From the IMG/VR virus record IMGVR_UViG_3300025000_000276, positions 1-34,861 of that record: a DNA stretch of 34,861 nucleotides. One strand, 5' to 3'. Source of the stretch: a virus. The position numbers and the translations under genes are program-made. Under the pieces are notes generated by a model. The model saw nothing but the letters and a program-made list of their open reading frames with translations, had not been told where the DNA came from and searched no databases. Position 1 is the first letter of the stretch. Each line of letters opens with the position of its first letter. Of the stretch, positions 2,493 to 29,656 are shown piece by piece.

Positions 2493-3135
2493 TATTAGCG
2501 CCTCCTGTCAGGTTCTTTAAAAGATTGTTAGCTATCAAATCAGATACCACAATCTCTTCTGTTTCAAAATCGTGCCCGTTGCCGTCTTTTGGCTGCCACG
2601 GCTCATTTATGTTATGGATTTTGCTCTTAAAAAAATCAAAACCAGCGATTGCAAGCTCTTTCGGTTGGTATCGTATAATATCAAGAATCGCGCAAACGCC
2701 TGTTGTCGGTATGCTGCCTATTGTGCAAAAGCTGCTGATAAAGTTGGCGGGTGTTTGCGCAAAGTGCCGCGTGTTCTGCAATAGCGCCCTTCTTGTCTGC
2801 TGAACATATCGAAAATCACCACTCTTACCCGCTATTTCTCGGCCTCCAGTGTGCTTGTTGAACGCAAAATCAAAAGGATATTTGAAGAATAAAAACTTTG
2901 GGTTATCGCGCCGGATTCTCTCATCAACGCCTTTGATTGAGCGCCCAAAGAACGAATAATACACGTCTACGCGCCTGCACTCATTAAAAAACTCGTAGTT
3001 GTTAGCCCTCACGATAACATTAAAGCGGTTCAGCTCTTTTGCGCTCAGGTTCACTACGGACGGCGCAGAGCCTAAGATAATTACAGAGCGCCCGGCAAAA
3101 TACTTCTCAACCAGACTTTCTTGCAAAAGCATCAT
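2485..3135 (-). CDS. GT29-like (sialyltransferase-like) glycosyltransferase family protein (216 aa)
   Basis: The N-terminal motif GRSVIILGSAPSV followed by FNVIVRANNYEF resembles the L-sialylmotif region of GT29 enzymes (a G-S/N-x-P-S loop, then an R-x-N motif). A later TTGVCAILDI...IAGFDFF block resembles the second conserved region (PTTG...G-DF). I set the start at the tandem ATGs 3135/3132 behind AAGGGC, giving about 28 bp overlap with the upstream gene. Family members transfer sugars from nucleotide donors; the acceptor here is unknown. It shares its general layout with the duplicated protein at 29835-30896. Confidence 0.6.
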   Translation of the reverse strand: MMLLQESLVEKYFAGRSVIILGSAPSVVNLSAKELNRFNVIVRANNYEFFNECRRVDVYYSFFGRSIKGVDERIRRDNPKFLFFKYPFDFAFNKHTGGREIAGKSGDFRYVQQTRRALLQNTRHFAQTPANFISSFCTIGSIPTTGVCAILDIIRYQPKELAIAGFDFFKSKIHNINEPWQPKDGNGHDFETEEIVVSDLIANNLLKNLTGGANNA

Positions 3136-3799
3136 ATAGCCCTTGATATTCAGAATCCCACACATGATACGTGGTCTTTTTACAGCATACCTTTTTCGGC
3201 GTGATTTGTCTAATAAAAACTGTTGGCGATTTGCGTATCTTATCAGCGAAAACAACAAGACAATCTTTATTCAAGCCCTCTGCAAGTGCCGTTCCCCAGC
3301 CCTGCTGACACACAATCAAATCAGCTCCTCTGAACAATGCAACTGTTTCAAAATAGCTCTGGCTCACAATCTCAGTCACGTTTGCGTATTTTTCTATCGA
3401 CTTATTAGCAATGTGCAGCACAATATAGCCACACATGCGCAAATCATCTATAATCCGCTGCATTACTGCTTTGTCGGGTGTCATTTCATTACGCGAACCC
3501 ATGCCATTATAGCCAGCAGCAAAGATTGCAATCGGCTTATGCTCAATCTCAAAATCATCGGCGCAATCATAACCCATGTCGGCAAGCTGCGTTGTGTCGG
3601 GGGTTTCTTTGCCTTCAAGATACGAAAAAACTTTGTCGCACTTGCGGCAACGGTCGAACTTCTCAACTTTTACCGGCAAATGTGCAAAGATTTCAGGGTA
3701 ATTCGATAGCACGGTGACATTGCCTTCTGCCGCCTCTTTGCGCGCTAATGGCTCAAGATAAATTGAATCGCCAAAGCCTGATAAGCCTCTTATAACCAC
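3107..3799 (-). CDS. GT9-like (heptosyltransferase-like) protein (230 aa)
   Basis: A GTG start at 3799 follows AAGGAG with 8 nt spacing. The N-terminus (MVIRGLSGFGDSIYLEP) resembles the opening of ADP-heptose:LPS heptosyltransferases, where a G-D motif ends the first loop. The C-terminal half has FRGADLIVCQQGWGTALAEGL, comparable to the family's D-S/T-G-x-x-H loop though the His is absent. It is shorter than typical GT9 enzymes (about 320-350 aa), so it may be a reduced phage version. It overlaps the GT29-like gene downstream. A role in altering a surface glycan, or an unusual phage modification, is inferred. Confidence 0.6.
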   Translation of the reverse strand: MVIRGLSGFGDSIYLEPLARKEAAEGNVTVLSNYPEIFAHLPVKVEKFDRCRKCDKVFSYLEGKETPDTTQLADMGYDCADDFEIEHKPIAIFAAGYNGMGSRNEMTPDKAVMQRIIDDLRMCGYIVLHIANKSIEKYANVTEIVSQSYFETVALFRGADLIVCQQGWGTALAEGLNKDCLVVFADKIRKSPTVFIRQITPKKVCCKKTTYHVWDSEYQGLYDAFARKSG

Positions 3800-5797: not shown

Positions 5798-6892
5798 TCA
5801 ATAGCTTAACGGCATCAAAACAGCCTGCAACGGCTCATCGTCGATAGACTCAAAAAGCGCCGGATAACTCGGTGTTGTCATCTTAACGCTGCACTCATCG
5901 CAATTTACCGCGCCAAGAAAATCAGTCAGAAAGCTGGCGTTAAAAGCAATGTTAATCGGCTCCCCGGTCAGCTTGCAATCAATAGTCGATTCTGCTTTCC
6001 CGTTATCGTTGCTTTTCGACCAAAGTTTGATTGAGTTGTTTGCGAAATCAAGGTTGACCATGTTTGAGTTGTTGCGCGCAATCGGCATCAGACTCTTAAC
6101 GGCCTGCGCAAACTCTTTGCGAAAAAACACGGCTTCGATTGCGTGCTCTTTCGGCATGACGCGTTCCCATTTTGGAAAAACGCCATCAACCATGCGCGTA
6201 ATAAACGTCACACCTTCACGCTGAAACACAAGCTGCTCTTTGAACTTGCCGATTTTCACCATATCAGCGCCGGTCAGCATCGCAATCACTTCTTTAACTG
6301 CACGTATCGGCACAATAAACGGCTCTTTCATGCCTTCTGGCGCGTCGATTGTAATTTTGTTGGCTGCAAGGCGCTTGCTGTCGGTTGAAACAACGATAGG
6401 CACTTCTGAAAAGTCCACAAGCACGCTTTTTTGAACCGGGTTGCCGTCCTCTGTGCTCGCCGCGATACCGCCGCGCTTAATTGCATGTGCAAGCTCGCTG
6501 CCTTTGATTTCAACAAGCCCATCAACATCAGGAATCGGCGGGTAATCGTCAGCATCAAGCGTTCTCACGCTGAACACGCTCTTGCCTGCTGTTAGCTGCA
6601 ATTCATCGTTAATCAGCTCAACGCGCACCGGAAACAGCAAATCAGACGGCAAGCCTGAAATAAGCTCAAGTAGTAGTTTGGCGGGTGCGGTAATTTTACC
6701 ACACTTCTGAACGTCTGCCGCAACTTCGACGATCTGCATAACCTCTTGGTCGGTTCCGACAATTTTTACTTTGTCACCGTTGGCATCAATCAGCACGTTT
6801 AAAAGCACTGGTCTGGCCGTTTTGGTTGCAACTGCTTTTGATGCAATCGCAACCGCGTTTTTTAGTTCTCCTGCGTCGATTTCAAAAATCAT
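5798..6892 (-). CDS. dnaN: DNA polymerase III beta sliding clamp (364 aa)
   Basis: Length is that of bacterial beta clamps (about 366 aa), with the expected three-fold layout: an N-terminal strand set with VAIASKAVATKTARPVLLN, a central block SVRTLDADDYPPIPDVDG (the classic F-x-x-x-x-D-x-D-Y/F-P motif), and a third domain with AFNASFLTDFLGAV (the family's F-N-x-x-Y/F-L-x-D). The ring tethers DNA polymerase and other clamp-binding proteins. No phage polymerase gene is in the window, so it may serve the host replicase or a polymerase elsewhere. GGAGATATT precedes the ATG. Replacement of the usual PVRP C-terminal tail by LMPLSY is within family range. Confidence 0.9.
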   Translation of the reverse strand: MIFEIDAGELKNAVAIASKAVATKTARPVLLNVLIDANGDKVKIVGTDQEVMQIVEVAADVQKCGKITAPAKLLLELISGLPSDLLFPVRVELINDELQLTAGKSVFSVRTLDADDYPPIPDVDGLVEIKGSELAHAIKRGGIAASTEDGNPVQKSVLVDFSEVPIVVSTDSKRLAANKITIDAPEGMKEPFIVPIRAVKEVIAMLTGADMVKIGKFKEQLVFQREGVTFITRMVDGVFPKWERVMPKEHAIEAVFFRKEFAQAVKSLMPIARNNSNMVNLDFANNSIKLWSKSNDNGKAESTIDCKLTGEPINIAFNASFLTDFLGAVNCDECSVKMTTPSYPALFESIDDEPLQAVLMPLSY

Positions 6893-7620: not shown

Positions 7621-8172
7621 TTATTCCCATGCCTTAGAATATTCGTGATTTTTAAAAATAGCGGCAATGCCTGTATTTTGCTTGAGCCTTAAAACTTCAT
7701 CAGCACTCATTCCAAGGTGTTTTCCAATATCCGTATCACTCCAACCTAGCATTATTAACTCGGCAACAATATTGCTCATCTGCGTTACGTTGTGCTCGCC
7801 ACGCGCCCTATTGTGCCTGATCGTGCTTGCCATACGGTCTTTTATTGCCTTGTTTATTATAACCACAGGCACCATAGGCAGTTTGAATTTGTCAGCAGCG
7901 TTTTTATATCTATGGGCGCCATCAACAACGATATAAACATCATTTTCATCATCGTAAATAGTTACAATCGGTTGCGTGTAGCCGTCTTCTTCAATACTAT
8001 GCTGCAAAAGCTTCATTTCCGGCGGAGCTACCGCGTTAGGATTGTATTCATTAAATTTTACTTTTTCAATCGGCACAAGAACAGCAAACAAACAGGGAAA
8101 AGCCATTCTTTTTTCATCTTCGCTAATTTGAGCGCCCTTTTTCATCAAATCAAAAATTTCAGTAGTTTTCAT
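7621..8172 (-). CDS. ibrB: IbrB-like ParB/sulfiredoxin-fold protein (183 aa)
   Basis: A ParB N-terminal-type domain is clear: VPIEKVKFNEYNPN, then LLQHSIEEDGYTQPIV, then the active-site-like VDGAHRY at residues 83-89. A C-terminal segment (RHNRARGEHNV, ELIMLGWSDTDIGKHLGMSADEVLRL, GIAAIFKNHEYSKAWE) is typical of IbrB. The family is named from E. coli prophage regulators of immunoglobulin-binding (Eib) proteins and almost always pairs with IbrA, as here (4-bp overlap). ParB/Srx folds can bind nucleotides and DNA, and some hydrolyse CTP or ATP. The biochemical role in phages is unsettled. Confidence 0.85.
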   Translation of the reverse strand: MKTTEIFDLMKKGAQISEDEKRMAFPCLFAVLVPIEKVKFNEYNPNAVAPPEMKLLQHSIEEDGYTQPIVTIYDDENDVYIVVDGAHRYKNAADKFKLPMVPVVIINKAIKDRMASTIRHNRARGEHNVTQMSNIVAELIMLGWSDTDIGKHLGMSADEVLRLKQNTGIAAIFKNHEYSKAWE

Positions 8173-9452
8173 AAGTCTTTATATTTTTCCTTTAATTGTT
8201 CAAGTTTTTCGTATTCTTCTTTGTTGGCTGAAAACGTAAGATTTTTACATAAATAATCACCCTTAATAAGCACTTTTGCAATTCTGCGCCAGCTTGGAAC
8301 TTTTTTGTTGGTATCGCTTTCGTGTTCGTCGTTAATGCTTACAACATAAAGGCCTTCTGAGTCTAGCCTTTCGTTTTCAGCATAGTCTTGCGTATAAGCG
8401 TGCTCAATGTCTTTGTATATTTCTTTGCGCCACCAGCGCAAGAAAACATTTATTCGCCTTAAATAATGTTCTCGTAAAAATGGCGGCATTGTTCTAAGGA
8501 TTAGCCGCGCCCATTCTTGCCAAGAAACATTTTCCGGCTTTTCAATCCGGCCCTTAATAATATTCTTACCCTTGTAGAGTTTCGCAAAGTTTGCGCCATA
8601 AACTCTGTTTGTCATTCGAGCCCAAGTTTCAGGCTCTATTTTGCAAAACAAATCAATATTGTCTCTTTGTTCTTCACCGTATGGCTGACAGATGCGCATA
8701 CTGCACAATGGATAACCAGCAAGATACATTTTATCGTAGACGGCGTTGTATTTTTTATCAACCATGTATTTCCAAACGTCTGTTACATCCCAGTCATAAA
8801 CAGGATGAACGCTATAGGTTTGATGTCCAGTTGATTTCTGTTTTAAAATCCATTGCTTGCCGTTGTAAAACTCACGAAATTTTTGAACGCGCATTTTTAG
8901 AAAGCGGTTAAAACTCTCTTGTGTTCTAATTCCGATTATCTGCGCGACTTTTTCAAGCCCTTGTTTTTCTACAAGAAACTTCGGAAATTCAATAATAAAT
9001 TCTTCAAACTCCATGCCTACTCGAAAATGATTGCCAAATGGGTTATTTGTTTCGTTTACAATCAAACTATGTCCTGGCATTGGCCTAATCCATTCGTCTT
9101 TTTTGCTCGAATCCCATGCTAGCCATTTCGGCATGTGAAAGCTGCTGGCGTTGCTTAAATTAAAAGGCAAGCACAACCAATAACCCCGCATTTCAAATTG
9201 CTTATCATTTGCCAATTCAAGCAAAAAATCATTGTGCAGCTTGTAATGTCCTTCAAGGTCGATGATTAGCGTGTTAATGTAGTTAATGCCACGATTCATC
9301 GCGATTTCCCGCATAAGATAATAACAAACAGTGCTATCTTTGCCGCCAGAAAACGACAGCCATATCTCTTCTGGTTTAAAGTTGTCATACAAATAGTTTA
9401 CGCGCTCTTTCGCAGCCTCATGAACATCAATGTTTAAATATCTTTTACTCAT
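8169..9452 (-). CDS. ibrA: IbrA-like PAPS reductase / DUF3440 protein (427 aa)
   Basis: The PP-loop SGGKDST at residues 35-41 identifies the ATP-pyrophosphatase/PAPS reductase fold, followed by IDLEGHYKLH. Later blocks YSVHPVYDWDVTDVWKYM and PLCSMRICQPYGEEQRDNI match the long C-terminal domain (DUF3440) of IbrA. The family relates to CysH and DndC (the phosphorothioation protein), so adenylyl or sulfur chemistry is plausible, but the DndC-type Cys set is not obvious. ATG 9452 overlaps the helicase stop as ATGA and the stop overlaps ibrB. Length is full. What it modifies is unknown. Confidence 0.85.
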   Translation of the reverse strand: MSKRYLNIDVHEAAKERVNYLYDNFKPEEIWLSFSGGKDSTVCYYLMREIAMNRGINYINTLIIDLEGHYKLHNDFLLELANDKQFEMRGYWLCLPFNLSNASSFHMPKWLAWDSSKKDEWIRPMPGHSLIVNETNNPFGNHFRVGMEFEEFIIEFPKFLVEKQGLEKVAQIIGIRTQESFNRFLKMRVQKFREFYNGKQWILKQKSTGHQTYSVHPVYDWDVTDVWKYMVDKKYNAVYDKMYLAGYPLCSMRICQPYGEEQRDNIDLFCKIEPETWARMTNRVYGANFAKLYKGKNIIKGRIEKPENVSWQEWARLILRTMPPFLREHYLRRINVFLRWWRKEIYKDIEHAYTQDYAENERLDSEGLYVVSINDEHESDTNKKVPSWRRIAKVLIKGDYLCKNLTFSANKEEYEKLEQLKEKYKDL

Positions 9453-10864
9453 AATTTTTTAAGCACCTCCTTTAATTTTTTATCCGACTTACCCTTCAAC
9501 TTCTTTATTTCCTCAATTTCGCGCTGAAATGATAACAGAATATTCTCCTTTTTCGCAAGCGATTTATCAATTCTTTCGTCAATGGTATTTGACGCGGTTA
9601 TTGTCACATAATGCACTTTGTTTTTTTGCCCTAGTCTGTGCTGCCGATCTTCAGTTTGCAATCTTTCGGCAAATTTAAAACTTTGAGTATAAAAAATAGC
9701 ATAGCTGCTGCAAACAAGCTCGTTCAGGCCATGACCGCCGGTGGATTGTGTGCCAACAAAAAAACGGCGGTCTTGCATAAATCGTTGCGCCTCAACAGCC
9801 CGCTCTTTTTCGCTCTTGCGGCCTGTATATTCACTTGTGCAATCCGCGCCATGCGCTTTCCGCAACATCGCAAGAATGCTGTCTATATCGTGCATATACT
9901 TAGCCCAAATCACTATTTTTTGATTCTCGGGAATTTCTTCAATGATTTCTTGCAAAACATCCAATCTTTTGTGTGCAAATTCAAGTTTTTTGCCGTTTTC
10001 AATCTCGTAGCCGCTGCAAATCTTTTGCAGGTCGGTAAAAAGGTTAAACACGGCTGTTGAGCCAACTTCTTCATATTTTTCTAGCAACTCAAAAAATGCC
10101 TCTTTTCTAATCTGATAAGCCGCTTGCTGAGTAGCCATCAGCGAATAATGCCGGGTTGAATGTGTTTTTTCAGGCAAATCTAAGCAGTCTTCTTTTTTCA
10201 CCTGATAAACATACGGTTTCATCTTTTCAGCCAGAACGTCGGTATGGTGCGCCCTTCGCACAACGCCGGGGTATTTTTCGCTATATTCGAGATGATTAGC
10301 CGCAAAGCTGAAAAAACTGTTATATCCTAAAATAAGTGTTGACAAAAATCGAAACTGCGAAAACAAGTCTTTGAACCCGTTGCTTGTCGGCGTTCCGGTC
10401 ATAATCATGCGGTATTTTGCCTTTTTGCCGCATTCTGTAATCCACTTCGTTCTATTTGCGCTATGGCTTTTGATATAGGTTGATTCGTCGCATACTACAG
10501 CGGTATTTTCATCGCACAAATCTAACGCGCAAAAGATAATTCTTTTGCTGTCGCTCATGCTTTCAATGCCGATAATGTAAAAATCTGCTGCCGGGATTTT
10601 GCCCTGTTTGGTTTTATCGTCGAAAACATAACAAGTCGCCGTTGTATGCTGTTTGAGCTGATCTGCTATTGTTTTTTTAACCGATACAGGGCAAAAATAC
10701 ACAACCTTGCTGATTTTGTGCTGCTTTAACCGTAGCCATTCAAAGGCGGTTAGCGTCTTTCCGGTGCCCATGTCCATGAATAGCGCGGCCACCTTAACGC
10801 CTTTGAGTTTTTCAATGGCATCTTGCTGATGCCGCATTAGTTCAGTCGTTATCGCGTAGTTCAT
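9449..10864 (-). CDS. SNF2-family DNA-dependent ATPase/helicase (471 aa)
   Basis: Helicase superfamily 2 motifs are in order: RHQQDAIEKL (Q-like), MDMGTGKT Walker A (residues 31-37), VVCDESTYIKS (motif II, DES in place of DEAH), MIMTGTPTSNG (III), STGGHGLNEL (V) and DRQHRLGQKNKV (VI). The SNF2 HRxGQ signature is clear. At 471 residues it is a minimal two-lobe engine without accessory domains, so a separate partner may give targeting; the HARP-like protein directly upstream is a candidate. Phage SNF2 proteins are thought to remodel DNA-protein complexes or forks. The start ATG 10864 overlaps the upstream gene by 23 bp. Confidence 0.9.
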   Translation of the reverse strand: MNYAITTELMRHQQDAIEKLKGVKVAALFMDMGTGKTLTAFEWLRLKQHKISKVVYFCPVSVKKTIADQLKQHTTATCYVFDDKTKQGKIPAADFYIIGIESMSDSKRIIFCALDLCDENTAVVCDESTYIKSHSANRTKWITECGKKAKYRMIMTGTPTSNGFKDLFSQFRFLSTLILGYNSFFSFAANHLEYSEKYPGVVRRAHHTDVLAEKMKPYVYQVKKEDCLDLPEKTHSTRHYSLMATQQAAYQIRKEAFFELLEKYEEVGSTAVFNLFTDLQKICSGYEIENGKKLEFAHKRLDVLQEIIEEIPENQKIVIWAKYMHDIDSILAMLRKAHGADCTSEYTGRKSEKERAVEAQRFMQDRRFFVGTQSTGGHGLNELVCSSYAIFYTQSFKFAERLQTEDRQHRLGQKNKVHYVTITASNTIDERIDKSLAKKENILLSFQREIEEIKKLKGKSDKKLKEVLKKL

Positions 10865-22582: not shown

Positions 22583-23092
22583 ATGGCTGGAAAGCCGAAG
22601 TCTGGAAAGACAAACGCTGGCGCAAAGAGCAAATATGAAGATAGCTGGCCTGAGATAGCTGAAGGCTATGCTAGACGCGGGTTATCTGATGCTGATATTG
22701 CAAAAAATCTTGGCATTAGTGTTAATACTTTTTATGTTTATCAAAACAAGTATGAGGAATTTTCTAAGGCAATACAGCGCGGGAAGAAGCCTGCTAACTT
22801 GATTGTAGAGAATGCGCTTTATAAACGCTGCCTCGGATTTGTATCGGAAGAGGTTAAAGAGCGCGTTTTTGATGACGATCAAGGCAAGCCGCGCACCGAA
22901 ATAACCACTACGCGCAAAGAAATCATACCCGATATAAACGCGATTCGTTTTTGGCTCACCAACAGAGAACCTGAATTATGGAAAAATTTCAGAGAAGAAA
23001 TTGCAAGCGGTGATAATGCCGATGAAAAGATAAAAGAACAGCTTGAAAGCTATTTCAAGGCGTTGTTAAATAAGCAGAAAGATGCTGAATAA
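22583..23092 (+). CDS. Terminase small subunit (169 aa)
   Basis: Residues 33-60 (GLSDADIAKNLGISVNTFYVYQ) form a HTH domain, followed by KYEEFSKAIQRGKKPANLI (a linker typical of this group) and a C-terminal block DINAIRFWLTNREPELWKNF. This is the layout of phage terminase small subunits, which bind packaging sites and recruit the large subunit. It lies directly before the large subunit gene. GGAGG precedes the ATG. Confidence 0.85.
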   Translation: MAGKPKSGKTNAGAKSKYEDSWPEIAEGYARRGLSDADIAKNLGISVNTFYVYQNKYEEFSKAIQRGKKPANLIVENALYKRCLGFVSEEVKERVFDDDQGKPRTEITTTRKEIIPDINAIRFWLTNREPELWKNFREEIASGDNADEKIKEQLESYFKALLNKQKDAE

Positions 23093-23191: not shown

Positions 23192-25663
23192 ATGAAAAAT
23201 GTTTTGAGTGAAGCATGGCGCAAGCGATTATTTCCCCTTATCGACAACCCCGAAGGGCTGAGATTTTCTTTATCAAACAAAAGATTTGAGGTTGTTGTTG
23301 CGGGTCGCAGATGTCTTGAGGCTGGAACTATGGTTGCAACTCCGTGCGGGCCGGTTCCTATTGAACAAATTCGCCCCGGTGATATCGTTTTTGGTTATAA
23401 TGCTGACGGCGGTATTTCAAAAACTGCCGTAATTAACTTCTTTAACAATGGCATTCAAGCGGTATACCCTTTTTTCTCAAGCAACAAAAAAATAGTTGCT
23501 GCTACTGAATTGCATAAATTTTGGGCTTGCAATGAATCTTTTTTTGATAGCAGAAAGCAAAGTATTAAATATAAAGAATCATGCCAGTATAAAAAAAGAC
23601 CAGTCGGCCAATTATCAAAAAGATACCGCGTAAAAAAAGAATATTTGTTTGATTTTTTTGAGGGAGGCAAAAAGCACGTTAAAAATGCTTATTCTCTTGG
23701 CGCTTTTATTGGCAACGGATGTTGCTTGCAAGGCAGTATTACAACCGGCGCTCAAACAAAATATTTATATATTTCAGACGAAGATGGCATCGTAGCTCAT
23801 GCCGTAGCAAAAGAAATGGGTGGTTATGCTGAAAAACAGCACGAATCTAATTATACTTGGAAAATTTGTGGCGTTGAAAATGTTTTAGATGCAATTCCCT
23901 TTTATCGCGAATGGTGTTGTATGCGGTATGCGCATGAAAAAATAGCCGATTGGAACGAAATAGACACGTGGAATAAAGATTCTGCAATGGCTTTTCTTGC
24001 GGGCGTATTTGATACAGATGGCAGCGTTTTTTACAAAAACAAAGAACAAGTAGAGGCGGTTATTCAGATAGGGATGCAGGCCAAATCTGTTGTGGAAGTG
24101 TGCCAAAAAATCATATATAAATACTTTCAGGAAGATTTAACTATTTTTGAAGATTCCCGAGAAAAATACAAAAATGGCAATGTTTTTTTTGTAAAAACAT
24201 CTTCTAATCTTTTATCAAAGCGGCTATACTTGGCATTATTACCATATTTAAAAAAAAGAAACAATTTTAATCTTGAACACTTAGAATTAAGAAACATTTT
24301 GCCCGATAGGATTGGAATGAAGAAAGGCGAGCCGTATTTGGCCGCCACTTATGATATTACTGTTGATAACGACACAAACCTTTATGTATTGCATAATTGT
24401 GGCCTCGTAACAAGCAATTCGGGCAAAACCGAAAGAGCCAAAAGAAAGTTTATACAACGCATTCTAGCAGGTTCAAAACACCCTCGACCTCGCTATGTTG
24501 CGGCGGCTCCAACGATTGAGCAATCCCGCCGAATATTTCTTCAAGATATTTGCGATATGTTGCCGTCGTTTCTTATCAGTAAAATAAATAAAAGCACGTC
24601 ATCTATTTTACTCACAACTGGCGCTGAAATTCTGATTGCAGGGCTTGATAATCCCGCAAGGGCAGAAGGTTCGCCGATTGATGGTATGATTATTGACGAA
24701 ACAGATGATTTAAAGCCCCGCGTTCTTGAAGAACACATTTACCCGTGTTTTACCGATAGACAAGCGTTTTGCATGTTTTTGGGCGTGCCTAACGGGTTAA
24801 AATTGCTTTATGAGTTAAGCAAGAATGCGTTAATTGAGCCGAAAGAATGGGATTTTTTTACATGGCCTTCAAGCGAAGTTTTGCCCGCCGCTGAATTAGA
24901 GAGATTTCGCAGGATTTACGATGAGAACACTTTCAATCAGGAATTTAACGCCAGCTTTGTTACGTTTTCCGGGCGCGTTGCCTATGATTTTGGCCGCGCC
25001 AATTACAAGCACGAATTAGTGCATTATCTCAACAAGCCGCTTGAAATCTGCTGGGATTTTAATAACAGCCCTGGCATAGCCGCAATCGTGCAAGAACAAG
25101 TAATGCCCGGTCAATACGAGCTTTTCAACACTGGCTCAGAGATTATAAAATCACAAGTTATCGGCTCAGGCGTAATCGGTGAAGTGTGGATACCGCGCCA
25201 CTCTAATACGATTCTGGTTTGCAGAAAGATTTATGAGGACTGGAAACATCACAAAGGCGAAATTATCTTTTACGGCGACCCGGCAGGCGGTCAGCAAAAA
25301 TCCTCTGGCATTGCTGGCTCAGACTGGGATTTGGTGCAGAATTTCTTCAAGCAAACTGAATGGGCTAACCGAATTTCTTATGATATACCACGCGCTCACC
25401 CTTCGGTCAGATCGCGAATTAACGCGATGAATTGCAGAATTAAGTCGATTGATGGTATAATACGTTTTATGGTTGACCCTGTCGCCGCGCCGCATGTTGT
25501 TGAAGATTTCGAGCGGTTAACGGTGCTTGAAGGCTCAAACGGCGAAATTGACAAGAAAAGCAACAAGGCAATCGGGCATTTGTTCGACGCGGTATCATAT
25601 CGTGAAGCGCAGAAATACCCGGTTGATGACGAAAACAGAATTATTAAAGTTTGTGATTTCTAG
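23192..25663 (+). CDS. Terminase large subunit interrupted by an intein (823 aa precursor)
   Basis: Removing residues 41-409 joins VVVAGRR to SGKTERAKRK and restores a Walker A (AGRRSGKT). The mature 454-residue protein has Walker B DGMIIDETDD, the nuclease domain with ICWDFNNSPG, IIFYGDPAGG and a final IGHLFDAVSYREA. It powers and cuts DNA during packaging. The intein is needed to splice out before activity, and its insertion at the ATP loop would silence the ATPase until splicing. AGGAG precedes the ATG; it is followed after 8 bp by the portal gene. Confidence 0.9.
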   Translation: MKNVLSEAWRKRLFPLIDNPEGLRFSLSNKRFEVVVAGRRCLEAGTMVATPCGPVPIEQIRPGDIVFGYNADGGISKTAVINFFNNGIQAVYPFFSSNKKIVAATELHKFWACNESFFDSRKQSIKYKESCQYKKRPVGQLSKRYRVKKEYLFDFFEGGKKHVKNAYSLGAFIGNGCCLQGSITTGAQTKYLYISDEDGIVAHAVAKEMGGYAEKQHESNYTWKICGVENVLDAIPFYREWCCMRYAHEKIADWNEIDTWNKDSAMAFLAGVFDTDGSVFYKNKEQVEAVIQIGMQAKSVVEVCQKIIYKYFQEDLTIFEDSREKYKNGNVFFVKTSSNLLSKRLYLALLPYLKKRNNFNLEHLELRNILPDRIGMKKGEPYLAATYDITVDNDTNLYVLHNCGLVTSNSGKTERAKRKFIQRILAGSKHPRPRYVAAAPTIEQSRRIFLQDICDMLPSFLISKINKSTSSILLTTGAEILIAGLDNPARAEGSPIDGMIIDETDDLKPRVLEEHIYPCFTDRQAFCMFLGVPNGLKLLYELSKNALIEPKEWDFFTWPSSEVLPAAELERFRRIYDENTFNQEFNASFVTFSGRVAYDFGRANYKHELVHYLNKPLEICWDFNNSPGIAAIVQEQVMPGQYELFNTGSEIIKSQVIGSGVIGEVWIPRHSNTILVCRKIYEDWKHHKGEIIFYGDPAGGQQKSSGIAGSDWDLVQNFFKQTEWANRISYDIPRAHPSVRSRINAMNCRIKSIDGIIRFMVDPVAAPHVVEDFERLTVLEGSNGEIDKKSNKAIGHLFDAVSYREAQKYPVDDENRIIKVCDF
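23312..24418 (+). other. Intein with DOD (LAGLIDADG) homing endonuclease domain
   Basis: Protein segment of 369 residues: splicing block A CLEAGTMVATPCGPVPIEQI with Cys1, block B with TELHKF (Thr65, His68), block F YDITVDNDTNLYV, and block G ending LVTSN with Ser +1. The endonuclease motifs are LGAFIGNG (129-136) and LAGVFDTDG (229-237). In the first, the catalytic Asp of the usual GDG is Asn. The penultimate residue is Ser in place of the usual His. The segment is more AT-rich than its flanks by eye. A decoy HN-C (361-363) lies just before the true junction. Confidence 0.85.
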
Positions 25664-25671
25664 GAGTAAAT

Positions 25672-27123
25672 ATGTTTGAAACGCTACCGACAACGATTAC
25701 AAGCGCAAAAGGCCCGGCTCACAAGCGGCAGGAATTGGAATGGCAGATGATTAACGCGCTGCTTGGCGGCAGTGGTTCAATGCGTGCGTGGGGTAATGTT
25801 TATTTACCCGCGCTCGACAATGAAAATGCAGTAAGATATAAAAAACGCCTGTCAAAGGCCGTGCTTGCACCGTTCTTTAAGCGTGCTGTTGGCTTCTCGG
25901 CTGGCAAGGCGTTCTTTCGCCCGATAACCGTGAGAGCCGTTAAAGAGAAAACCGCAATCAGCGACAAGATGCAGGCCGTTCTTAATGATGCAAACCGCAA
26001 GAGTGATTCGCTAAACAAGTTTGCCGCGTCTGCGTTCAAAGACGGGATTGCAAAGGGTCTTGGTTATATTTACGTTGAGGCTGATGCTTACAGCCCGGAA
26101 AGCATCAAAACAGAAGCTGACTTTAAAGCCGCGAACATCAGGCCGTATCTGCTTTATTTGCCCGCCGAAGATGTGTTGGACGCGGATATTGACGAAAACG
26201 GCAATATCATTTACGCCAAAATCATCGAAAAATTTACCCGCTTCAACAACGAAACAAAAGCAACCGAAGAAGCGACCAGAATCAGGCTTGTTACCCCGAA
26301 ATGGATAGGCGTCTACAATCAAGAAAAGGCCGTTTCTACCGCGTTAAACAAGCGAACGGGCACATTCACCTATTACATGACCGAAGAGCCCATGGTCAAC
26401 GCGCTAGGCAAGGTGCCGCTTGTGCCGTTTTACGCCGGCGAAAAGAAAACAGAATTTGAAGCGCCGAGCCCGTTTCTCGACCTTGCTTACACTAATGTGC
26501 AGTATTACCAAGACGAAAGCACCCACGAAATGGCGATTTCAACCGCTGAATTTCCTATTCTTGTCGGCAAGGGCAAAGGCACTGATGTTGATATAGGCCC
26601 GCATAAGATTGTTATCGTGCCTGCCGATGGTGATTTGCGATACGTTGAACACTCAGGCGCGGCTCTTGAGGCTGGCAGAAGGAACCTTGAAGAGCTGCGC
26701 ATTAAAGCGGCTTATTGTGGCTTGAAAGCGCTTGCTTCTGATTCTTCTGGCGGCGGCGGTAAAACAAAAACTGCATCTGAGGCTGAAATGGATTACATCG
26801 ACGCTAACTCAGATTTGAAAGTTGCTGCTGATTCCTTCGCGGACGCGCTTAATATGGCGCTTTGGTATGTTCAGCGGTATCTCGGTGAAGTGCAAGACGG
26901 CGAACAATCAAAATACATGGCAAAAATGAATGGTATGTTTGCTGTTACTGCCTCTGACGTGCAGGAAATTGGTTATCTGATGCAACTCAAAGATGCTGGA
27001 CAAATGCGCGTTGAGACGTTTTATCACGAATTGAAGCGGCGAGGCACAGTATCAGATGATTTTGATATTGCTTCTGAGTCTGCGTTTGCGGCTGAAAATG
27101 CTGATAATCCAGAGGGTGTGTAA
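25672..27123 (+). CDS. Portal protein (483 aa), DUF4055-like
   Basis: The N-terminal region has WQMINALLGGSGSMRAWGN and LPALDNENAVRYKKRLSKAV followed by RAVGFSAGKAFFRPI, the pattern of DUF4055-type portals. A central ARIRLVTPKWIGVYNQE-type segment and a long C-terminal helical part with a Gly-rich run (SSGGGGKTKTASEAEMDYID) follow. Position between terminase and a Mu F-like protein fits. The portal forms the ring through which DNA enters the head. ATG 25672 has AGGAG. Confidence 0.8.
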   Translation: MFETLPTTITSAKGPAHKRQELEWQMINALLGGSGSMRAWGNVYLPALDNENAVRYKKRLSKAVLAPFFKRAVGFSAGKAFFRPITVRAVKEKTAISDKMQAVLNDANRKSDSLNKFAASAFKDGIAKGLGYIYVEADAYSPESIKTEADFKAANIRPYLLYLPAEDVLDADIDENGNIIYAKIIEKFTRFNNETKATEEATRIRLVTPKWIGVYNQEKAVSTALNKRTGTFTYYMTEEPMVNALGKVPLVPFYAGEKKTEFEAPSPFLDLAYTNVQYYQDESTHEMAISTAEFPILVGKGKGTDVDIGPHKIVIVPADGDLRYVEHSGAALEAGRRNLEELRIKAAYCGLKALASDSSGGGGKTKTASEAEMDYIDANSDLKVAADSFADALNMALWYVQRYLGEVQDGEQSKYMAKMNGMFAVTASDVQEIGYLMQLKDAGQMRVETFYHELKRRGTVSDDFDIASESAFAAENADNPEGV

Positions 27124-28745: not shown

Positions 28746-28780
28746 GAAAACAAGTTCAAATTTAAACAAAAGAGGTGTTT

Positions 28781-29656
28781 ATGGATATTTCAAAAGCAAA
28801 CGCAATTCAGAGTTTTAAAGTTTTTAATTCAGATTGGAAATGTCGTGATTTTCAGTTTGAAGTCGGCAAATCGTATCAACACAGCGGCGTTGTTGTTGCT
28901 TGCGATTCCGGCTTTCATGCTTGCAAGAAAATTGCAGACTGCTTTTCTCATTACGACTTTAACCCTAAAAACAAGATTGCATCTGTTTTGCAATGGGGCA
29001 AAATCGACGAATCAGAATGCGATAAAGTTGCTTCTGAGTATATTGAAATAATTAAAGAAATTACATGGTCTGAAATGTTGGAATTAGCTAATACCGGGCG
29101 AGGCTGTTCAGGCCACAGGAACAGCGGCCACAGGAACAGCGGCAACAGGAACAGCGGCCACAGGAACAGCGGCAACAGGAACAGCGGCCACAGCAACAGC
29201 GGCAACAGGAACAGCGGCCACAGGAACAGCGGCCACTGGAACAGCGGCCACAGCAACAGCGGCCACAGGAACAGCGGCGACTGGAACAGCGGCTACAGGA
29301 ACAGCGGCGACTGGAACAACGGCGACTGGAACAGCGGCTATTTAAACTCAACAACACCAACAACAATCAGGGTCTTTAACAAAGATTGCGATAGAAAGCT
29401 ATGGGAAGATGCTGACAAGCCCGCTTTGCTTTATTTTGATTTAACCAAGTGGATTGATTTTGATGAAATGGATAGTGTTGAGAAAAAAGCCAATCCGGGC
29501 GCAGAAACATGTGGCGGTTATTTGAAGACACTGGATTATAAAGCAGCTTGGGCGGAATCATTCGCAAAGGCAACGCTAAAAGACATTGAATTGCTCAAAA
29601 GCCTGCCAAACTTTGATGCTGATGTGTTTTTTGAAATATCTGGAATCCGCGTATAA
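28781..29656 (+). CDS. Pentapeptide-repeat protein with DUF7666-like N-terminus (291 aa)
   Basis: The N-terminal 105 residues (KVFNSDWKCRDFQFEVGKSY, then CDSGFHACKKIADCF) match the phage DUF7666-type domain. Residues 111-190 are 16 copies of a pentapeptide GxxNS (mostly GHRNS, GNRNS, GDWNS), close to the NxGxx repeats of mycobacterial PPE-MPTR proteins (Pentapeptide_2), which may form a beta-helix. The C-terminus (LYFDLTKWIDF and on) returns to a mixed fold. The gene ends in a terminator. It could be a receptor-binding or host-interaction protein, but that is inferred. Confidence 0.7.
   Translation: MDISKANAIQSFKVFNSDWKCRDFQFEVGKSYQHSGVVVACDSGFHACKKIADCFSHYDFNPKNKIASVLQWGKIDESECDKVASEYIEIIKEITWSEMLELANTGRGCSGHRNSGHRNSGNRNSGHRNSGNRNSGHSNSGNRNSGHRNSGHWNSGHSNSGHRNSGDWNSGYRNSGDWNNGDWNSGYLNSTTPTTIRVFNKDCDRKLWEDADKPALLYFDLTKWIDFDEMDSVEKKANPGAETCGGYLKTLDYKAAWAESFAKATLKDIELLKSLPNFDADVFFEISGIRV
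29111..29350 (+). repeat. 16 x 15-bp coding repeats
   Basis: Consensus GGCCACAGGAACAGC, encoding GHRNS with variation (GNRNS, GHSNS, GHWNS, GDWNS, GYRNS, GDWNN, GYLNS). Divergence is higher at the 3' end. Copy number could change by slippage. Confidence 0.85.

Follow-up and report, generated by a model that had tools for sequence, protein, structure and literature searches.

The stretch of DNA analysed here (34,861 nt, positions 1 to 34,861 of the IMG/VR virus record IMGVR_UViG_3300025000_000276; hereafter the window) encodes a terminase large subunit (TerL) whose Walker A motif is interrupted by an intein with a putative LAGLIDADG endonuclease. Two substitutions pointed out in a preliminary description of the sequence are real: the first LAGLIDADG motif reads GNG in place of GDG (codon AAC; checking the sequence gave no GDG), and the penultimate residue of the intein is Ser (codon AGC) in place of His.

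Table 1. Features of the intein-containing TerL gene and its neighbours in the window
Feature	Position	Strand	Basis
Terminase small subunit (context gene)	22583-23092	+	phrog_309, E 3.4e-39
TerL precursor ORF, 823 aa (intein and exteins)	23192-25663	+	phrog_2 terminase large subunit, E 4.6e-18
N-extein, ending AGRR	23192-23311	+	alignment to intein-free TerL
Intein, 369 aa, Cys1-Asn369	23312-24418	+	junction alignment, predicted fold
Block B, AATELHKFWA (T65, H68)	23498-23527	+	family alignment
First LAGLIDADG motif, LGAFIGNG; Asn135 (codon AAC, 23714-23716) replaces catalytic Asp	23696-23719	+	alignment; end of predicted helix 126-135
Second LAGLIDADG motif, LAGVFDTDG; Asp236 kept	23996-24022	+	alignment; LAGLIDADG_3
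Blocks F and G, TYDITVDNDTNLYVLHNCGLVTSN; Asp348, Thr355 (24374-24376), Ser368 (24413-24415), Asn369	24347-24418	+	TIGR01443 above cut-off
C-extein, starting SGKT, including stop codon	24419-25663	+	homologue alignment
Portal protein (context gene)	25672-27123	+	phrog_145, E 1.3e-78

A single open frame without stop or shift runs through both exteins and the intein, which forms residues 41-409 of the precursor (codon of Cys1 at 23312-23314, of Asn369 at 24416-24418, +1 Ser at 24419). The frame lies between the genes of the terminase small subunit and the portal protein, and these neighbouring packaging genes are intact. AGRRSGKT is unbroken in all five intein-free TerL homologues examined (L002-L006). 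When the exteins were joined in silico (AGRR/SGKT; the slash marks the insertion site) the product had the sequence of these homologues, and the alignment was free of gaps at the junction. In a tblastn search of sequenced phages, the TerL matches among those listed begin at precursor residue 403 or, mostly, at 410-411, which is SGKT. Because the homologues are unbroken and the matches begin at SGKT, the boundary is exact to the base. The coordinates given for the intein in the preliminary description, re-examined by codon check and by the alignment with the five homologues, are exact. The intein is inserted between Arg and Ser of the Walker A sequence GRRSGKT.

The junction, together with the conserved residues of the intein, strongly argues that splicing restores GRRSGKT, as the preliminary description had proposed. 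Since the P-loop would be rebuilt by splicing, TerL would be expected to gain its ATPase and packaging activity only afterwards; the position of the insertion points to this dependence. Walker A of phage TerL proteins is known to harbour inteins: the mycobacteriophage inteins TerL1-a and TerL1-b (Kelley et al. 2016, PMC5050341) interrupt the motif between Lys and Thr and one residue away, respectively. Neither site is matched by the insertion in the window, so that comparison with known TerL inteins, suggested earlier, finds a precedent for the motif and a difference in the exact position. The G+C content of the intein is 36.4%, as against 44.2% in the exteins; this puts it in the bottom 1% of window segments of the same length and may hint at acquisition by transfer. 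Uninterrupted GRRSGKT sites are common among related TerL genes (in a gene set collected partly by that motif), so empty homing targets exist.

The identity of the insert was supported by profile searches and by structure prediction. In a six-frame search the intein_Cterm model TIGR01443 gave a single match in the whole window, which scored above the cut-off (20.5 vs 15.6 bits). LAGLIDADG_3 (Pfam) was above its gathering score within the intein, and the N-terminal Hint block was matched weakly by Pfam and NCBIfam models. The AlphaFold2 model, computed from a 15-sequence family alignment, had a pLDDT of 90.9 and a pTM of 0.90. It aligned end to end with PI-SceI, the yeast VMA intein (Z 21.5, rmsd 4.4, 322 residues), with which residues 1-369 of the window intein share a two-part fold at 17% sequence identity; PI-SceI is larger (454 residues). 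The model also matched the splicing domain of Npu DnaE (Z 18.1, rmsd 2.0, 131 residues), PI-PfuI and TliVMA. Judged by the predicted structure, the insert is bifunctional, consisting of an intein and a LAGLIDADG endonuclease.

The features of a class 1 intein are present. The residue-1 nucleophile is Cys1, invariant in the 15-member alignment; the block B TxxH is found as T65-E-L-H68; the intein ends in Asn369 and is followed by Ser+1; and the predicted model has the Hint fold. The penultimate His, a usual but non-obligatory feature of the class, is absent, Ser368 standing in its place, but this is no bar to class 1 membership because published exceptions exist. Assignment to class 3 was considered on account of the Thr at G:5, and was ruled out by Cys1 and by Asp348 at F:4.

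Searches of viral contigs with single sequences, either the intein or the TerL C-extein, gave no matches; degenerate junction patterns and alignments were required. A scan with the junction pattern and alignment-based scans of viral contigs revealed seven further distinct inteins at GRR/SGK (L101, L103, L105, L106, L107, L108 and L117), which with the window intein make a clade of eight; several additional loci proved to be duplicates, from the same contigs or from identical ones. Two candidates (L122, L125) were chance matches to the C-terminal junction pattern, and the sole result of a single scan of genome contigs was an unrelated Hint protein of Verrucomicrobia (L121). Among sequenced phages and plasmids the clade was not found, beyond short Hint-type or distant matches; unlike TerL1-a and TerL1-b, the close relatives of the window intein were found in environmental viral contigs only. 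In the tree the eight inteins are separated, with 100/100 support, from sister inteins that end in HN. The sisters share the N-terminus CLA[EK]GTLVATPxGP, occupy other P-loops of TerL or other ATPases (e.g. NQ/SGKS, GK/T and NR/CGKT), and most of them also lack the block-F His.

The C-terminus of the window intein (Table 1) lacks a second histidine that the preliminary description had not mentioned. Thr355 occupies the position seven residues past the block-F Asp, where Npu DnaE has His (YDIGVERDHNF). Both changes are shared by the whole clade: the penultimate residue is Ser in 8/8 members, all of which end in TSN before SGKT or SGKS, and the block-F His is replaced by Thr or Ser in every one of them. 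A His in the loop between blocks F and G (LH) is found in seven of the eight; it is missing from L117, a mini-intein, and is therefore not a general substitute helper.

Splicing without a penultimate His is already known. Phage class 1 inteins with Gly, Lys or Ser at this position have been described, one with penultimate Gly splices efficiently and is slowed by His there, and the block-F His was noted as able to stand in for the penultimate one (Kelley et al. 2016, PMC5050341). According to a review both positions assist, block-F 13 being most commonly His (PMC4031507). Npu DnaE, which is like the window intein in its Hint fold and its penultimate Ser (it ends in IASN), is unlike it in being naturally split and free of an endonuclease and in keeping the block-F His (DHNF). 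A TerL intein of the isolated Gordonia phage Tangent, which ends in EVSN/T, likewise has a penultimate Ser; in contrast to the window intein it retains the block-F His and lies in another TerL at another site. All of 13 further phage inteins, a small and biased sample, end in HN and, like class 3 inteins, have Cys at F:4. What appears to set the clade apart is the absence of both assisting histidines in class 1 inteins. With so few sequences sampled, the simplest course of events would be an ancestor without the block-F His, followed by change of the penultimate His in the clade.

The loss of both histidines could be taken to mean that the intein no longer splices and that this TerL is a non-functional relic. 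We regard this as very unlikely. The same double loss occurs in 8/8 members of the clade, and in each of them the TerL frame flanking the intein is unbroken. In the window the residues needed for splicing are conserved (Cys1, the TxxH of block B, the block-F Asp, the terminal Asn and Ser+1), the ORF is free of stops and frameshifts and the packaging neighbours are intact. Ser368 itself does not mark the intein as failing, being fixed in the clade and documented both in phage inteins and in Npu DnaE; the substitution singled out earlier is real, but it is less unusual than it had seemed. Another conceivable solution is splicing at a different Asn: residues 360-363, just upstream of GLVTSN, read LHNC and resemble a canonical HN/C junction. 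Cleavage there would, however, strand CGLVTSN inside the P-loop, an arrangement seen in no relative, and neither the Asn nor the Cys is conserved in the family, where this position reads LH(N/D/H/Q/K)(G/C)G. The chance that LHN/C is the true junction is close to negligible.

The state of the endonuclease is less clear-cut. Two LAGLIDADG helices (126-135 and 222-236) are predicted in one domain, with motif 1 reading YSLGAFIGNGCC (LGAFIGNGC) and the intact motif 2 reading FLAGVFDTDGSV (LAGVFDTDGS). In an active LAGLIDADG enzyme a catalytic acid closes both motifs; in the window intein the first closes with Asn135 and the second with Asp236. The motif Asp of LAGLIDADG enzymes coordinates metal. 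Of the other members of alignment A3, 13 possess a first motif, and in 11 of these it reads GDG, as it does in several inteins from cultured phages. With the first catalytic Asp replaced by Asn, double-strand cutting has probably been lost. A parallel is provided by PhoVMA, an archaeal intein without an active-site Asp, which was nuclease-dead by experiment and in which regrafted motifs restored cutting (PMC8966425). Like the window intein it has lost the Asp and kept the architecture; the two differ in that block E of PhoVMA carries a deletion, whereas in the window intein one Asp of block C is replaced by Asn.

The rest of the domain is well conserved. Constraint was gauged by the conservation of invariant columns instead of dN/dS, which is unsuitable since the members are ~45-50% identical in amino acids and synonymous sites would be saturated. 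The count covered endonuclease columns that show no variation among the other members tested, and left out the Asn135 column, where L106 varies. The window intein breaks two of 25 such columns and intact members break 0-3, whereas L108 breaks 11 of 23. GNG also recurs. It is present in L106, with the codon AAT instead of AAC, and in an unrelated class 3 helicase intein of Erwinia phage Kwan (L163, NC_031010.1), whose second motif is intact. The tree requires two Asp-to-Asn changes, one in the window intein and one in L106, with branching within the clade not resolved and a single origin in 2% of the bootstrap trees.

These observations leave some room for an endonuclease with remaining activity, whether nicking or weaker double-strand cutting, and for an intein that still homes. 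The domain is as conserved as in GDG members, and the occurrence of GNG in three inteins, with second motifs intact in L106 and Kwan too, could mean that Asn is tolerated and not lethal. A search of the literature found no usable account of PI-SceI D218 or of Asp-to-Asn nickases of LAGLIDADG enzymes. Against continued activity stand the prevalence of GDG, the metal-coordinating role of the Asp and the dead nuclease that accompanies its loss in PhoVMA, and on balance we consider it unlikely. The earlier suggestion of a missing catalytic Asp was thus correct, and that of a dead enzyme probable in view of the GDG norm, with the conservation of the remaining domain and the recurrence of GNG speaking for caution.

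If the endonuclease has indeed been inactivated, the event looks recent because the remaining domain is well conserved. The clade displays an intact GDG (L103 and L107, for example), GNG (the window intein and L106), an eroded domain in L108 (motif GDN, 301 aa, many invariants lost) and no endonuclease in L117, whose 135 residues are predicted to form a complete Hint fold (pLDDT 95.2). Since L108 is eroded and L117 has none, the endonuclease is dispensable in the clade. The simplest reading is that GNG has abolished activity only recently, as the first step of a decay that is further advanced in other lineages. The clade is thus a small environmental intein family in which several lineages, the window intein probably among them, are losing the endonuclease.

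Taken together, the insert is very probably a class 1 cis-splicing P-loop intein with a nested and probably inactivated LAGLIDADG endonuclease, which persists through the need of TerL for precise splicing and not because of homing. In this mechanism Cys1 would initiate the N-S shift, Ser+1 would accept the N-extein, and cyclisation of Asn369 would free the intein, with neither a penultimate nor a block-F His to assist it, a situation shared with the seven other members of the clade. The P-loop of TerL would be complete only once spliced. The endonuclease would have been inactivated recently, or would retain no more than nicking or binding. A more far-reaching version, in which the loss of both histidines reflects a different cyclisation arrangement, perhaps delaying TerL maturation until late infection, and the GNG enzyme may be a natural nickase, is doubtful.

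New in the clade are the insertion point, unlike those of TerL1-a and TerL1-b, the lack of both assisting histidines at the C-terminus of class 1 inteins, and the stages of endonuclease decay that a single site presents; the rest of the finding extends existing knowledge of phage TerL inteins. One extein motif here carries a natural series of intact endonuclease, single changed catalytic Asp, eroded domain and none, and because the series shares a single insertion site the homing-cycle model can be tested on one target sequence. The clade is also useful for asking what else drives Asn cyclisation without the usual assisting His.

Other inteins came to light beside the clade. L118 (IMGVR_UViG_3300015370_000076) apparently has two inteins in one TerL P-loop, at 3001-3402 and from 3412. 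WGRR is followed by a 134-aa mini-intein ending in VTHN, then by SGK, the only three extein residues between the two, and then by a larger LAGLIDADG-type intein that starts with Cys and ends in IITHN/T. At the NQ/SGKS site of TerL P-loops, L151, L152 and L153 are mini-inteins of ~125-140 residues without endonuclease, and their relatives L136, L137 and L144 are full-length; the near-identical C-exteins of L151 and L136 suggest a recent loss or swap of the endonuclease. The intein L147, at GRRSGK/T of TerL, has a large deletion just past the first LAGLIDADG motif and an intact splicing domain.

The window encodes further genes of interest. On the minus strand, 5798-6892 specifies the phage's own DNA polymerase III beta sliding clamp, in which each of the three Pfam domains is present, and 8169-9452 a protein with a PAPS reductase domain and DUF3440, flanked by genes for a ParB-like protein (7621-8172) and an SNF2-type helicase (9449-10864). 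Just 3′ of the head genes, the plus-strand gene at 28775-29653 joins DUF7666 to pentapeptide repeats, and its product matches PHROG 14105 (function unknown; E 5.5e-92).
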